Made by a program: the position numbers and the translations under genes | Shown: positions 56,306-63,871 of the stretch, one piece after another | Layout of the letters: each line of letters opens with the position of its first letter | Numbering within the stretch: position 1 is the first letter of the stretch | Origin: Sphingobacteriaceae bacterium | GTDB lineage: Bacteria > Bacteroidota > Bacteroidia > Sphingobacteriales > Sphingobacteriaceae | Assembly: GCA_947463785.1 (NCBI GenBank) | Contig: CANHRG010000002.1 | Location: 248,001 to 312,000 of the forward strand | Reading direction: 5' to 3' | Length of the DNA stretch: 64,000 nucleotides | The notes under the pieces: generated by a model | Database searches by the model: none | What the model was told of the DNA's origin: nothing | The model's input: the letters and a program-made list of their open reading frames with translations, nothing else

Positions 56306-56983
56306 TCATTTCAAATTATACAATTGTGTAACTTCTTCTTGGGTTAAAGCCCGATTGTAAATACGCAATTCGTCTATACTTCCTTTCCAATAAAAATCTA
56401 GGTCGTAGCCAATCTGTAGAAAATCATCGAAACCCGTAAATTGCGTATTTCCTGTATAAAGTATGCTTCCTTTAAAAGTACCATTCAAATAGAATTTAAT
56501 TGAGGTACCATCGTAAACCCCAACTATATGATACCAACTATTCATTTGAAAGGATGAGTCAAAGTATCCATCGAAACCTGGCAATGCTAAAAAAAATCCA
56601 ATTAGCTTATCTTTTATCGCAAATCCAAAACTACCGCCATTTTGTTGTTGAAAGTAAATGGGATACTTTAATCCGGGGTCATTACTATTTACCCAATATG
56701 AAACACTAATTTGATTACTTATTATAGGAGCATTAGACTTAAAGTTAACGAACTGATTAATTCCGTTAAACAATAGTGCTTTGCCATATTTTCCAGGTAT
56801 ATAGGCAATTGCACTTCCACTAAAAACACCATCATTGCTATAGGACTGTTGATCTTTTAAATTATCATCAAAATTGAAATACGAAATAAGGCCTTTAGTG
56901 ATATCAGGTGGAGTACTTTTATCTTTTTTACAACTTATTGCTACAACCAATAGCAACATAGTTAATACTAATTTTTGTTTCAT
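56306..56983 (-). CDS. LamG-domain lipoprotein (copy 1)
   Basis: Surface or periplasmic lipoprotein of 225 residues. It has a lipoprotein signal (MKQKLVLTMLLLVVAISCKK, lipidated Cys18) and one concanavalin A-like/LamG jelly roll: GLISYFNFDDNLKDQQSYSN, WYHIVGVYDGTSIKFYLNG and the end GSIDELRIYNRALTQEEV. This end motif is typical of LamG_3 domains. No catalytic residues are evident; glycan or protein binding is likely. ATG 56983 opens the signal peptide. It is a close paralog of the next gene upstream. Confidence 0.88.
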   Translation of the reverse strand: MKQKLVLTMLLLVVAISCKKDKSTPPDITKGLISYFNFDDNLKDQQSYSNDGVFSGSAIAYIPGKYGKALLFNGINQFVNFKSNAPIISNQISVSYWVNSNDPGLKYPIYFQQQNGGSFGFAIKDKLIGFFLALPGFDGYFDSSFQMNSWYHIVGVYDGTSIKFYLNGTFKGSILYTGNTQFTGFDDFLQIGYDLDFYWKGSIDELRIYNRALTQEEVTQLYNLK

Positions 56984-57076
56984 ATAAACTAACAGCGATA
57001 AAACAGTGCTATTGGTATCATCCAACAAAGTATATGTGGCAAATCATGGTAAGCTTATGCCAAAAACCATACCTAA

Positions 57077-57742
57077 TCAGTAATATTGATACAATTGCTG
57101 AACTTCTTGAGCATCTAAAGCCCGATTGTAAATTAATAGCTCATCAATTGTCCCCGTCCAGTTGCTTTGGGGATTAAAATTTCCGAGTAGAATAGCTGAG
57201 TTAAAGCCATCAATTGGCTCTGATTGTACCACAGATTCCTTCAAGACACCATTTACATAAATCTTAATGTTCGTACCATCGTAGGTACCTACAATGTGTT
57301 TCCATTCACTTCCTACTCCATCTCCAGACACCTGAACATCTATTGGGGTAACAATCCTGAACAGAAAATTATTCTGACTACCAGCAAATGCCCAGGAGCT
57401 TGTATTGGAGTTGTAATAAATAAAATACGTACCAATTAGATCTGTAGATTTAACCCAAAAAGCAATGGAAATACTCGTACTGGATTTTGGAATTTTAGGA
57501 GTAAATGTGAGGTATTGATCGGCAGCCGTGAAAGAAATAGCCTTACCCAATTTACCAGTTACAAAAACAGGGCTACCTGTTTTGATCCCGTCACTGCTGT
57601 AACCGTTCAAGTCTTTAAAATTATCATCAAAATTGATGTGTGATACTAAGCCTATGGTTGGATACGTGCGAGCTTTATCTTTTTTACACGTTGCTAGAAA
57701 GCATATGCCTGGAAGCAAAAGGAAGAGTATTATCTTTTTCAT
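57077..57742 (-). CDS. LamG-domain lipoprotein (copy 2)
   Basis: Lipoprotein of 221 residues with the same plan as copy 1: signal MKKIILFLLLPGICFLATCKK (Cys19), GLVSHINFDDNFKDLNGYSS, EWKHIVGTYDGTNIKIYVNG and GTIDELLIYNRALDAQEV. The two copies clearly share ancestry but are well diverged, so the duplication is old. They lie in tandem, 93 nt apart, and may be cotranscribed. The binding partner is unknown. Confidence 0.88.
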   Translation of the reverse strand: MKKIILFLLLPGICFLATCKKDKARTYPTIGLVSHINFDDNFKDLNGYSSDGIKTGSPVFVTGKLGKAISFTAADQYLTFTPKIPKSSTSISIAFWVKSTDLIGTYFIYYNSNTSSWAFAGSQNNFLFRIVTPIDVQVSGDGVGSEWKHIVGTYDGTNIKIYVNGVLKESVVQSEPIDGFNSAILLGNFNPQSNWTGTIDELLIYNRALDAQEVQQLYQYY

Positions 57743-59827: not shown

Positions 59828-60349
59828 ATGAACGAGATTAAGCTTAGGAAAATTGGACCGGCCGAGGTTGAAGATTTGAAAAAAATTAGTGAGCAAACTT
59901 TTTCGGAGGCTTTTGCGGCAGCGAATACGGAGCAAAATATGAACTGGTATTTTGAAACTGCATACGCTGTTGAGCAATTGCGTTTTGAACTGATGGACTT
60001 GAACTCTGAATTTTATTTTGCGGAGCTTAACGAACGGGTAATTGGTTTTTTAAAGCTGAATTCGGGGATGGCGCAAACGGAATTGCAGGAAGAAAATGGG
60101 CTTGAAATTCAACGGATTTATGTTTTGAATGAGTTCCATGGCAAAAAAGTGGGTCAATTGTTGTTTGAAAAGGCATTGGATATTGCCCGATTGAAAGGTG
60201 CAGCTTATGTTTGGCTGGGCGTTTGGGAACATAACCCAAAAGCGATTCGTTTTTATGAGAAAAACGGCTTTGTGGCATTTGACGAGCATACGTTCCGTTT
60301 TGGTGATGAGGACCAGCGTGATATTATGATGAAACTGGTTTTGGACTAA
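59828..60349 (+). CDS. GNAT family N-acetyltransferase (PaiA-like)
   Basis: Predicted acetyltransferase of 173 residues. Seen: IQRIYVLNEFHGKKVGQLLFEKAL containing the acetyl-CoA loop, and YVWLGVWEHNPKAIRFYEKNGF typical of PaiA-like polyamine acetyltransferases. I chose ATG 59828 (MNEIKLRKI); an in-frame TTG at 59813 abuts the queG stop. It ends the ruvB-queG operon. The repeat array begins at its stop codon, so the array probably lies in this operon's 3' untranslated RNA. Confidence 0.88.
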   Translation: MNEIKLRKIGPAEVEDLKKISEQTFSEAFAAANTEQNMNWYFETAYAVEQLRFELMDLNSEFYFAELNERVIGFLKLNSGMAQTELQEENGLEIQRIYVLNEFHGKKVGQLLFEKALDIARLKGAAYVWLGVWEHNPKAIRFYEKNGFVAFDEHTFRFGDEDQRDIMMKLVLD

Positions 60350-60656
60350 AACTATTTGCTGGTGATGCTGTACTTTTTAGTAGTGCTACTGCACTCTTTA
60401 TAGTTTCTTTTGCACGAATTGTAAGTACTACTGTACTTTTTAAAAACTCTTCTGCACTATTTATAACTACACCTTCACTAATTGTGTGTTCTCATGCACT
60501 TTATAAAATCAGTGCTGCACTTTTTACAATTTGCCCTGCACTTTCTAATTTTAGAAATGCACTGATTACAACTACTTGTGCACTTATTATCAATCAATTT
60601 GCACTTTTTATTGGCTGCCCTGCACTTTGGCAGGATTACCTTGCACACTTTATGAC
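60349..60656. repeat. Degenerate direct-repeat array with exact 21-nt period
   Basis: The 348-nt gap between the GNAT stop and the BNR gene holds 14 units with core GCACTTTTTA. The invariant A of each core is at 60372 and every 21 nt up to 60645, with no slip. AC is present in 14 of 14 units, the first G in 13 and the ninth-position T in 13. A weaker unit (AAACTATTTG) sits 21 nt earlier, right after the GNAT stop. The roughly 11 nt between cores vary. One plus-strand frame is open through it as a heptad repeat (such as SAALFTI, CPALSNF) but lacks a good start. It is not a CRISPR array. Confidence 0.9.
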
Positions 60657-60660
60657 AAAA

Positions 60661-60690
60661 AAAAGCCCCGAGGGTTTCCTCGGGGCTTTT
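60661..60690. terminator. Bidirectional terminator between the repeat array and the BNR gene
   Basis: A perfect 13-bp stem AAAAGCCCCGAGG / CCTCGGGGCTTTT with loop GTTT and T/A-runs on both sides. It lies 8 nt after the BNR stop (minus strand) and right after the array (plus strand). Confidence 0.94.
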
Positions 60691-60697
60691 TGGTTTT

Positions 60698-63600
60698 TTA
60701 TTGAATCGGCTTGTATTCTTTAAAGAGGGAGACTTTTGTTTCTTCTACCTTTTTGCGGAAGGCTGGCCAATCTTTGGTGAAATAGGCATTTACCCGATCA
60801 ATGAATTGTTTACTCAATTCTTCGGCTTGCTCTACTAGTTTCACTTCCTGGGCACCGGGTGCTACCGGTTTTGCATTGATGGTACCCTGTGCCTCGTTCA
60901 GTTTTTGGAGGGCTGTTAATTGGTATGGACGACCATAGCCTTGTTTTTCTAAACGTTTGCCATTGAGCACTTCTTTGATGGTTTTGATGCTATCTTGTTG
61001 CGCTTTGGCTGCCTTTAAAAGCTCTTTGGCTTCTTTGGTATCCACTCCCGTTAATTGTGCAGCTACTTTAGTGGCAATATCGTTGCTTTCGTCTAGTTGA
61101 TCGGTGGCTTGGGTTAATTTTCCAAAGGTTTTAGCCAGGCGGTCAATTAGACTGCGTTTAGCTTGGTACACTTCTTTAGAGAAGGGTACTCTTGGATCGG
61201 CCATGAATTCTACTTGTACCGAATCTTTGAAACTGCCGTATTGTACTACTGCTTTGTATTGACCAGGCATTGCTGCTAGTCCACCTATTTCATCGGCCTG
61301 ACCTCTAGTTCTTTGTCTTCCCGGATAACGAACGCCTTTTTCGTCTAATCCCCAATCGATGAAGTTTAAACCGGTATCTATTCGGGTATCGGTTAGGGTT
61401 CTAATCAGTTTACCTTCTTGGGTATAGATACGTGCAAACAGGGTATCAGCCTTAGCTTTGGCATTGGCTGGCTTTTTTACATCATTTGCTGGGGTTTCGG
61501 CTTTTGCCGGAACTTTAACCAAGTATGGAATTCGGGCAAAACCGTTTGGACGATTTGGGGCTTCGTAGGTTGCGTCTGCTGCAAATTCTACACCTACTGG
61601 GGCCAAACTTCCTTTTACATCTACTGCCATTGCTGGATCAAAGAGCATTAGATCTTTGATGCCTTGTGCGGCGATTTTGCGTAATGGTTTGATATCGTCT
61701 AGAATCCAGATACCACGACCAAATGTAGCGATAGCTAAATCTGATTCGCGTTCTTGAATGGCTAAATCCATGGTTGATACGGATGGATAGGCATTTTTGA
61801 ATTGGGTAAAGGTTTTACCTTCGTCTATACTTACCCAAAGGCCATTTTCGGTTCCGGCAAACACCAATTTAGGCTGAACAGGATCTTGCAAAATACACAA
61901 TGCATAGCCTTTCACTTTTTTCTCGTCGAGTACACGCTCCCAGGTTTTACCAAAATCTTTGGTGCGGTAAACATAGGGTGCAAAATCGCCCTGACGGTAA
62001 TTGTTGGCTACCACCCAAGCTTCGGCGGCATTGTAGCGTGATGCCTGAATTTGAGGTATCCAGCTTTCTTTTGGTAATCCTTTAATGCTTGGTGTAAGGT
62101 TAGTCCAGGTTTTACCACCATCGCGGGTAAGTTGTACGTTACCATCGTCGGTACCTACCCAAATTACCTGGGCATCCAGTTTACTTGGTGCAATGGTTAA
62201 AATGGTGTTGTGATTTTCGGCTGCGGTAATGTCGATTGTTAAACCACCACTTTCTTCCTGTTTTTGTTGGGCAGGGTTGTTTGTGGTTAGGTCTGGGGAG
62301 ATGATTTCCCAGCTGATGCCTTTGTTGTTGCTTTTGTGTACAAACTGACTTCCATAATAAATTGTGGAAGTATTGGTGGGATCTTGAGCCAGGGCTGCGT
62401 TCCAATTAAAGCGCAGGCGTGTTTTCAAATCGGGTGCCGGCGGACGGAGGCTGTAGGTAAATCCGCTTTGTTTATCGTAACGGGCCAATGCTCCTCCTTG
62501 TGACATGGCATAGCCGTATCGGCTATTTTCCGGATCGGGCAACACATCAAATCCATCGCCACCTAAAACGGTTTGCCAATAGGCGTTACGTATTCCACCT
62601 TCTCTCCAGATGTATGCCGGACCTGTCCATGAACCGTTATCTTGTAATCCGCCGTATACATTGTAAGGCATTTCATTATCTACATTGATGTGGTAAAACT
62701 GGCCTAATGGTAAGGATTCTACATAGGTCCATTTTTTACCTCGATCGTGGGAAATGGCAATACCTCCATCGTTTCCATCGATAATGTATGAAGGATCTTT
62801 AGGGTTGATCCAGAAGGCATGGTGATCTGGGTGCACGCCTGAGTATGGGATAATTACTTCAAAGTTTTTTCCTCCGTCTTCGCTACGGGCTATCATTTGG
62901 TAGATGTTGTATAAACGGTTTTCGTTTTGCGGATCTACGGCAATGTCTTGAAAATAGAATGGACGGTTATTTACCCATTGTGGATCGGTATTGATTACTT
63001 CCCAGTGGTAGCCTCCATCGTCGGAGCGGTAAAGTGCATTTTTGGAAGATTCGATCATGGCGTATACACGATCTGGATTACTGGCTGCAATGGCGATACC
63101 AATTCTACCTAGTTCACCTTCCGGTATACCGTTGTTTTTATCGAGTTTAGTCCAGTTTTTACCACCGTCTACCGTCATGTAGAAACCTGAGCCCGGTCCA
63201 CCCGATTTGAAATCGTAGGGTGTACGGCGCATTTGCCACATGTTTACGAAAATTTTATTCGGATTGGTTGGATCCATGACCATGTCGCCTACTCCTGATT
63301 TTTCATTGGTGTAGAGAATCTTTGTCCAGGTTTCTCCTCCATCGGTGGTTTTGTAAACACCACGTTCCTGATGGTCGGCAAATGGGTTTCCGAGTACGCC
63401 TGCATATACGGTTTGCGGGTTTTGCGGATCAATTAAGATGCGGTGGATGCTTACTGATTTCTCCAGACCCATGCATTTCCAGGTACGCCCGCCATCTAAA
63501 CTTTTGTAAATGCCCTGCCCCAGATTGATGGAATTACGTGGGTTTCCTTCACCAGTGCCTACCCAAACGGTGTTGGGGTTATTTTGTTGAATGGCTATGG

Positions 63601-63871
63601 CTCCAATATTCACCGTGGCATTTGCATCGAAGATGCTCTTCCAGGTTGTCCCCCCGTTATCTGATTTCCAAACGCCGCCAGATGCTGCGCCAACGTAAAT
63701 AATATCTGGATTTTGTTCTACTGCGGCAATGGCTGTTACCCGGCCGCTCATGCTACCGGGACCGATGTTACGCGGTTTCATGGCTTTAAGCAGACTAAAA
63801 TCAATTTGCTGAGCTAATGCACTTAGTGAAAGCATGCTCAATACTAGTATACCCAAGTATTTTATTCTCAT
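60698..63871 (-). CDS. Secreted BNR/sortilin-like beta-propeller protein
   Basis: Exported protein of 1057 residues with signal peptide MRIKYLGILVLSMLSLSALA. The first 750 residues hold at least 11 Asp-box (BNR) motifs such as SDNGGTTWKSI, SLDGGRTWKCM, TTDGGETWTKI and TRDGGKTWTNL, which form propeller blades as in sortilin/VPS10 proteins and BNR glycosidases. About residues 750-900 are a beta-rich region and the last 150 are helical (SLIDRLAKTFGKLTQATDQL). There is no T9SS tail. Function is unknown; annotation as a glycosyl hydrolase would be inherited from the fold only. Confidence 0.9.
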   Translation of the reverse strand: MRIKYLGILVLSMLSLSALAQQIDFSLLKAMKPRNIGPGSMSGRVTAIAAVEQNPDIIYVGAASGGVWKSDNGGTTWKSIFDANATVNIGAIAIQQNNPNTVWVGTGEGNPRNSINLGQGIYKSLDGGRTWKCMGLEKSVSIHRILIDPQNPQTVYAGVLGNPFADHQERGVYKTTDGGETWTKILYTNEKSGVGDMVMDPTNPNKIFVNMWQMRRTPYDFKSGGPGSGFYMTVDGGKNWTKLDKNNGIPEGELGRIGIAIAASNPDRVYAMIESSKNALYRSDDGGYHWEVINTDPQWVNNRPFYFQDIAVDPQNENRLYNIYQMIARSEDGGKNFEVIIPYSGVHPDHHAFWINPKDPSYIIDGNDGGIAISHDRGKKWTYVESLPLGQFYHINVDNEMPYNVYGGLQDNGSWTGPAYIWREGGIRNAYWQTVLGGDGFDVLPDPENSRYGYAMSQGGALARYDKQSGFTYSLRPPAPDLKTRLRFNWNAALAQDPTNTSTIYYGSQFVHKSNNKGISWEIISPDLTTNNPAQQKQEESGGLTIDITAAENHNTILTIAPSKLDAQVIWVGTDDGNVQLTRDGGKTWTNLTPSIKGLPKESWIPQIQASRYNAAEAWVVANNYRQGDFAPYVYRTKDFGKTWERVLDEKKVKGYALCILQDPVQPKLVFAGTENGLWVSIDEGKTFTQFKNAYPSVSTMDLAIQERESDLAIATFGRGIWILDDIKPLRKIAAQGIKDLMLFDPAMAVDVKGSLAPVGVEFAADATYEAPNRPNGFARIPYLVKVPAKAETPANDVKKPANAKAKADTLFARIYTQEGKLIRTLTDTRIDTGLNFIDWGLDEKGVRYPGRQRTRGQADEIGGLAAMPGQYKAVVQYGSFKDSVQVEFMADPRVPFSKEVYQAKRSLIDRLAKTFGKLTQATDQLDESNDIATKVAAQLTGVDTKEAKELLKAAKAQQDSIKTIKEVLNGKRLEKQGYGRPYQLTALQKLNEAQGTINAKPVAPGAQEVKLVEQAEELSKQFIDRVNAYFTKDWPAFRKKVEETKVSLFKEYKPIQ

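Follow-up and report, generated by a model that had tools for sequence, protein, structure and literature searches.

The locus examined here raises the question of why 14 direct repeats, drifted in sequence and held in an exact phase of 21 bp, occupy the spacer between two convergent protein-coding genes of a Sphingobacteriaceae bacterium. The stretch analysed, referred to as the window, comprises 64,000 nucleotides (assembly GCA_947463785.1, contig CANHRG010000002.1, positions 248,001 to 312,000), and the features of the locus are located in it as follows:

59828..60349, + strand: GNAT acetyltransferase gene, left neighbour of the array, also beside the array in the sister species G004 and G005
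60368..60661, no strand assigned: orphan array of 14 direct repeats of 21 bp each, defined by lag identity and a shuffle test, with the same unit as a gene-linked array
60660..60691, no strand assigned: bidirectional intrinsic terminator with a 14-bp stem, fitting both directions and abutting the array
60698..63871, - strand: sortilin/BNR-repeat protein gene, convergent right neighbour of the array, also present in G004 and G005

The array starts 19 nt past the stop codon of the GNAT gene (TAA, 60347-60349), and its last unit overlaps the terminator. A preliminary description of this DNA had correctly placed the array between the GNAT stop and the terminator; the extent given there, 60349-60656, had to be corrected to 60368-60661. 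The base identity within the array was 0.56 at a lag of 21 compared with about 0.27 at other lags, and the periodicity score of the segment amounted to 16.8, whereas 1000 dinucleotide-preserving shuffles averaged 2.6 and never exceeded 6.1. The series of 14 or more units around a GCACTTTTTA core in exact 21-nt phase that had been described from the letters was recovered as 14 units in perfect register, with the consensus cTGCACTTTTTAtaaNTNcTN and the cores TGCACTTTTTA on the forward strand and TAAAAAGTGCA on the reverse strand. The drift reported between the cores was likewise borne out, as positions 13-21 of the unit carry little information with the exception of T17. Owing to this drift of the units, the Tandem Repeats Finder program reported just 2.6 copies. 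Elsewhere in the window, a weak 21-nt periodicity was observed within a coding region at 440-860 that resembles by eye the coiled-coil heptads of MutS2; it looks like a coding-derived period unrelated to the array. Additionally, two adjacent similar genes at 56306-57742 resemble by eye LamG-type lipoproteins and are likely the result of a tandem duplication.

The repeat unit of the window occurs once more in the same genome (G000), at about 136.1-136.4 kb of G000:C2, where a second array immediately follows an unannotated gene at L154:15349-16080 that encodes a protein of 243 amino acids (MSSTSETGHAKN...). This gene was the only member of its family detected in the genome. The profiles of the two arrays show a similarity of 0.87, compared with a best value of 0.53 outside the genus, and both arrays share an orientation, given for the window array by the reverse strand, in which a terminator is followed by AGTGCA units. 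Near-identical dispersed copies of the window array were not found in its own genome. An array of the same unit is also present in the same GNAT/BNR spacer of the sister species G004 and G005, both of which were reached by a search with the GNAT protein and not with the repeat; of the 13 genomes searched, only G000, G004 and G005 contain a gene closely related to the BNR gene. The preliminary description had deduced selection on spacing from the drift without insertions or deletions and had proposed to look for similar arrays in relatives. Such arrays do exist, at the same place in G004 and G005 and beside a gene in the same genome, and they speak in favour of that selection.

A scan of 151 genomes of the taxonomic family with the profile of the window core matched three species of the genus and gave one further weak match, which indicates that the core is close to genus-specific. 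Five 21-nt arrays were present in the 831 kb of the genome that were sampled, namely the window array, the gene-linked array and three orphans with other cores, and two 21-nt arrays were found in 300 kb of G003, in which no family gene was detected. Orphan arrays are therefore a feature of this small-genome genus. Moreover, a DNA pattern scan for TGCRCT units in 21-nt steps across 85k species returned 63 stretches, most of which are short, near-perfect and unrelated tandem repeats, and those of relevance were confined to the Bacteroidetes. Two degenerate Bacteroidetes arrays found by the DNA pattern alone (L068 and L085) proved to be adjacent to a family gene. Further arrays that were noticed include a 13-unit 21-nt array (AAGAGTGGATACTCAGACGCC) located just before an open reading frame of a genome from another family (G033, L046:1301-1573), in which the family protein was not found, as well as three arrays with the common unit TGCACTCACAACTCCCGAACG on different contigs of Aequorivita sp. 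SP75 (L072, L086 and L093), with no family gene within the stretches fetched.

The relation between gene and array was analysed across the Bacteroidota by locating the family through the 243-aa protein and the arrays through a period detector that is blind to the repeat sequence. A search with 17 aligned copies detected family members in 38 of 395 Bacteroidia genomes (about 10%), single genomes giving as many as six matches, and the distribution in the phylum is patchy, often with several paralogues per genome. An array was detected beside 56 of the 59 non-duplicate copies, located downstream of the gene in 51 cases and upstream in five, and relative to the linked gene it always has the same orientation. 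The usual site of such arrays is just downstream of one specific gene, and the interval between a stop codon and a terminator, whose generality the preliminary description had proposed to test, is not the rule. The period was 21 nt in 52 of the linked arrays and 22 nt, a spacing of one lineage, in three, and was reported as 42 nt, i.e. two units of 21, in one; 50 of 55 arrays consist of 10-14 units. Four arrays (L190, L199, L201 and L237) are composed of alternating A and B units, with a 42-nt period stronger than that of 21 nt. The copies devoid of an array are L197, L198, whose contig ends 23 nt past the gene, and the divergent L261. A later phylum-wide search provided seven new complete copies, of which L330, L331, L332 and L335 are accompanied by arrays and L336 by a weak one; L333 and L334 from this search are copies counted before. 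Neither of the two copies of G737, which belongs to another class outside the Bacteroidia, nor one copy in G010 is accompanied by a 21-nt array. Short 8-nt tandem repeats (CAATAATC at L329:1228-1340 and TGTTGGAG at L337:2202-2281) were noticed near the G737 gene copies.

The single-contig chromosomes G761, G810 and G788 carry both gene and array. In 357 kb from three gene-bearing genomes only gene-linked arrays were present, and 400 kb of G011 and G020, complete genomes from the same family that lack the gene, contained no 21-nt array. The similarity of the arrays, compared on the same strand, rises with the identity of the proteins (Mantel p < 0.001): orthologues share a common repeat sequence on the same strand, whereas paralogues within one genome have different units, which are wholly different even where the proteins are 30-50% identical. 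The linkage to this protein family, which was invisible to the preliminary description, is the main finding of the present analysis.

The spacing within the arrays is rigid. Among approximately 565 spacings between neighbouring units, 541 are 21 or a multiple thereof, and the spacing in the 22-bp arrays is 22 in 30 of 30 cases. Conservation within the unit oscillates at 10.5 bp with a z-score of 9.1, which is still 8.1 when the set is reduced to 41 non-redundant arrays. A conservation rhythm at 3 or 7 nt was not detected in the linked arrays, nor was a subrepeat of 10-11 nt found within the unit. Neither a neutral simulation nor 39 unrelated tandem repeats of 21 nt displayed the 10.5-bp rhythm; the latter, as controls preselected by pattern, are not ideal. 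The units are not palindromic, since their dyad score of 0.351 equals the null expectation of 0.348 (sd 0.004). Rigid spacing combined with conservation at 10.5 bp is expected for a protein that reads one face of the helix, and this argues against a function of the repeats as coding sequence or as RNA.

The conserved positions of 56 arrays match the overall base composition and are not enriched in A/T. A/T-tracts, which appeared by eye to be the conserved element of the window array, were not recovered as such across the 56 arrays, and many arrays contain no T-tract; DNA bending by phased T-tracts, as envisaged in the preliminary description, thus found no support as a general principle. A contiguous conserved half-unit was also rejected as a general rule. 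In the window array and the arrays closest to it, one half-unit is conserved and the two-peak 10.5-bp pattern of the population is missing. With respect to the preliminary description, its interpretation is partly supported: helical phasing in an iteron- or centromere-like binding array is the reading that gained from the arrays in relatives and from the occupation of the same spacer in two sister species.

The family proteins are basic, with a median pI of 9.5 and a net charge of +9, compared with a background median pI of 6.7 in the genome of the window. The 243-aa protein of this genome has no match in Pfam or NCBIfam and is built as a tandem duplication of a helical unit about 105 amino acids long. 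The homology of the two halves was detected by HHalign with an E-value of 6e-14 over 100 columns (0.18 for the reversed control), and each half includes a conserved Tyr-x-Pro motif and a conserved arginine. An AlphaFold2 model is all-helical and confident (pLDDT 92.1). Structure searches with this model gave a best E-value of 0.057 with Foldseek and a best Z-score of 8.4 with VIA-align, and a best E-value of 1.6 for a half-model; they retrieved only generic helical bundles, which alone does not prove a new fold. Convincing relatives were found neither in PHROGs, PADLOC nor by PDB sequence searches. The family protein contains no recognisable DNA-binding domain and, with respect to Pfam and NCBIfam matches, no transposase or nuclease signature; searches of Pfam and NCBIfam with 56 members gave no Rep initiator family. 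Weak matches to DUF6261 (PF19775) were obtained for two of the 56 members, with a best E-value of 8e-5. The DUF6261 proteins are of similar length and belong to the same phylum, whereas a possible 21-bp array was seen at only one of eight DUF6261 loci; judged from these matches, DUF6261 is a possible distant relative of the family.

No recurrent partner gene, and in particular no recurrent motor ATPase or GTPase gene, was apparent among the 97 nearest neighbours, for which the 25 commonest Pfam families were listed; the most frequent of these are secretion-signal and PKD domains. In three complete genomes (L340, L341 and L342) the pair of gene and array adjoins pnp, and the neighbours there vary and comprise, among others, a GmrSD-type enzyme and a SIR2/NB-ARC protein; the site is probably a hotspot for variable genes of defence. 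These variable neighbours may reflect an integration hotspot rather than a defence function. Other copies of the pair are located next to DNA methyltransferases or an integrase. Integration linked to tRNA genes was dismissed, as a tRNA gene is nearby at only three of 56 loci. No family copies were retrieved from plasmid, phage and viral collections with one or two queries (two for plasmids). Literature searches on the protein motif and on such arrays yielded no description in the literature searched.

Several other explanations of the array were weighed against this evidence. A heptad-repeat peptide, intact or decayed, could be encoded by a period of seven codons, and a frame of 103 codons is indeed open throughout the window array, as is one frame on each strand of the G005 array. 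This frame continues through the terminator, the corresponding frame is stopped in G004 and in the second array of the same genome, 22-bp arrays exist and the conservation is devoid of a 3-nt rhythm; the coding interpretation, likewise raised in the preliminary description, is thus hardly credible. The nearly homogeneous arrays L193, L203 and L170 demonstrate that turnover of units happens, and point drift free of indels can persist for a while, which would be compatible with a neutral minisatellite generated by slippage of a 21-bp unit and now decaying. Such an origin is very improbable in view of the linkage to one gene family, the narrow range of unit numbers, the fixed period of 21 bp (rarely 22 bp) and a conservation rhythm that neither the neutral simulation nor the control repeats displayed.

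The arrays might alternatively act as RNA, be it as a tandem 3' untranslated region, as a small-RNA sponge or as a precursor cut into pieces of 21-22 nt. The location of the window array between a stop codon and a terminator, sense to the GNAT gene, and the fixed orientation relative to the linked gene would suit such a role, which is nevertheless quite unlikely: 23 of 48 downstream arrays are separated from the gene by a hairpin, often followed by a T-run, 10.5 bp governs both spacing and conservation, and no Rfam family reached its gathering score. The patchy distribution, the paralogues within one genome and the orphan arrays, along with integrase or defence genes near some copies, three of them at the pnp-linked place, are consistent with a mobile or selfish repeat that is copied or stabilised by the protein in the manner of REPIN-RAYT, the orphans being scattered descendants that serve the cell in no way. 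This explanation is also unlikely, albeit less so, since the protein carries no transposase or nuclease signature, the unit has no dyad, near-identical dispersed copies were not found in the genome, and one or two queries retrieved no copies from plasmid, phage or viral collections.

The arrays are probably docking sites on double-stranded DNA for the small, basic, all-helical protein whose gene usually lies beside them. The window array is apparently an orphan, a stray copy of a widespread two-part element composed of the gene for the helical protein and about 12 repeats. One protein molecule might occupy each 21-bp unit, its two halves each touching one turn of the helix on a shared face, and some 12 molecules lined up side by side would form a cooperative nucleoprotein assembly. 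Paralogues would have diverged to private repeat sequences, which would allow several pairs to function in parallel within one cell. A putative binder encoded at a distance of 172 kb in this genome would then have an orphan second site in the window array, and this protein may therefore bridge or mark two chromosomal places. Counted against docking were the lack of a DNA-binding domain, the fact that helical bundles often do other things, arrays without the gene, gene copies without an array, the complete difference of the units between paralogues of 30-50% protein identity and the one-half pattern of the window array. Candidate roles may include chromosome anchoring or organisation, a partition-like function, local silencing or maintenance as a selfish stable element; anchoring or organisation is our first guess among them, and a rather doubtful one.

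We tentatively suggest that these pairs constitute an undescribed chromosomal class of gene-plus-array elements in the Bacteroidota, in which a helical-bundle protein, duplicated internally, would recognise DNA in a new manner and coat about 12 repeats, each paralogue with its private code, and orphan arrays would extend a set of centromere-like landmarks. If this is true, DNA is the partner of a whole unannotated protein family of a major bacterial phylum, and dozens of natural pairs that differ in their repeats and share one fixed geometry make it possible to test a fast-evolving protein-DNA code. Moreover, the protein would possibly provide a new DNA-binding fold, and the system may show a novel way in which bacteria organise or mark their chromosomes.

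Among known systems, REPIN-RAYT elements resemble the present one in that a protein gene adjoins its repeats and orphan repeats occur elsewhere. REPs are palindromic, dispersed and of high copy number, whereas the repeats described here are direct, non-palindromic, arranged in tandem and few, and no match to the RAYT (tyrosine) transposase was obtained in the Pfam and NCBIfam searches of the family members. The partition centromeres of the ParR-parC and TubR-tubC systems and the ParB iterons of pMF1 share with the Bacteroidota pairs a gene with its own neighbouring array, dispersed extra sites, which for pMF1 have been described in addition to the iterons (PMC3235114), and system-specific sequences. 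Unlike partition systems, the pairs are chromosomal, consist of 21-bp direct repeats, have no recurrent motor gene and show no match to a known centromere-binding family. Plasmid iterons are bound by Rep, a winged-helix protein, at plasmid origins and are few in number (up to seven in the examples of PMC4980987), as opposed to about 12 units here; in contrast to Rep replicons, the present arrays are chromosomal, usually located downstream of the gene and represented by several paralogues per genome, and the helical-bundle protein has no Rep match. Because the protein and the context thus differ from the features that define iterons and centromeres, the element was not filed as a member of either. 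Its likeness to plasmid iterons lies in phased direct repeats (17-22 bp in iterons) beside a gene, the iterons being bound by a protein that their own element encodes, and in the iterons of RK2, R6K and pPS10 the cooperativity of Rep depends on helical phase and is abolished by a half-turn (PMC4980987).
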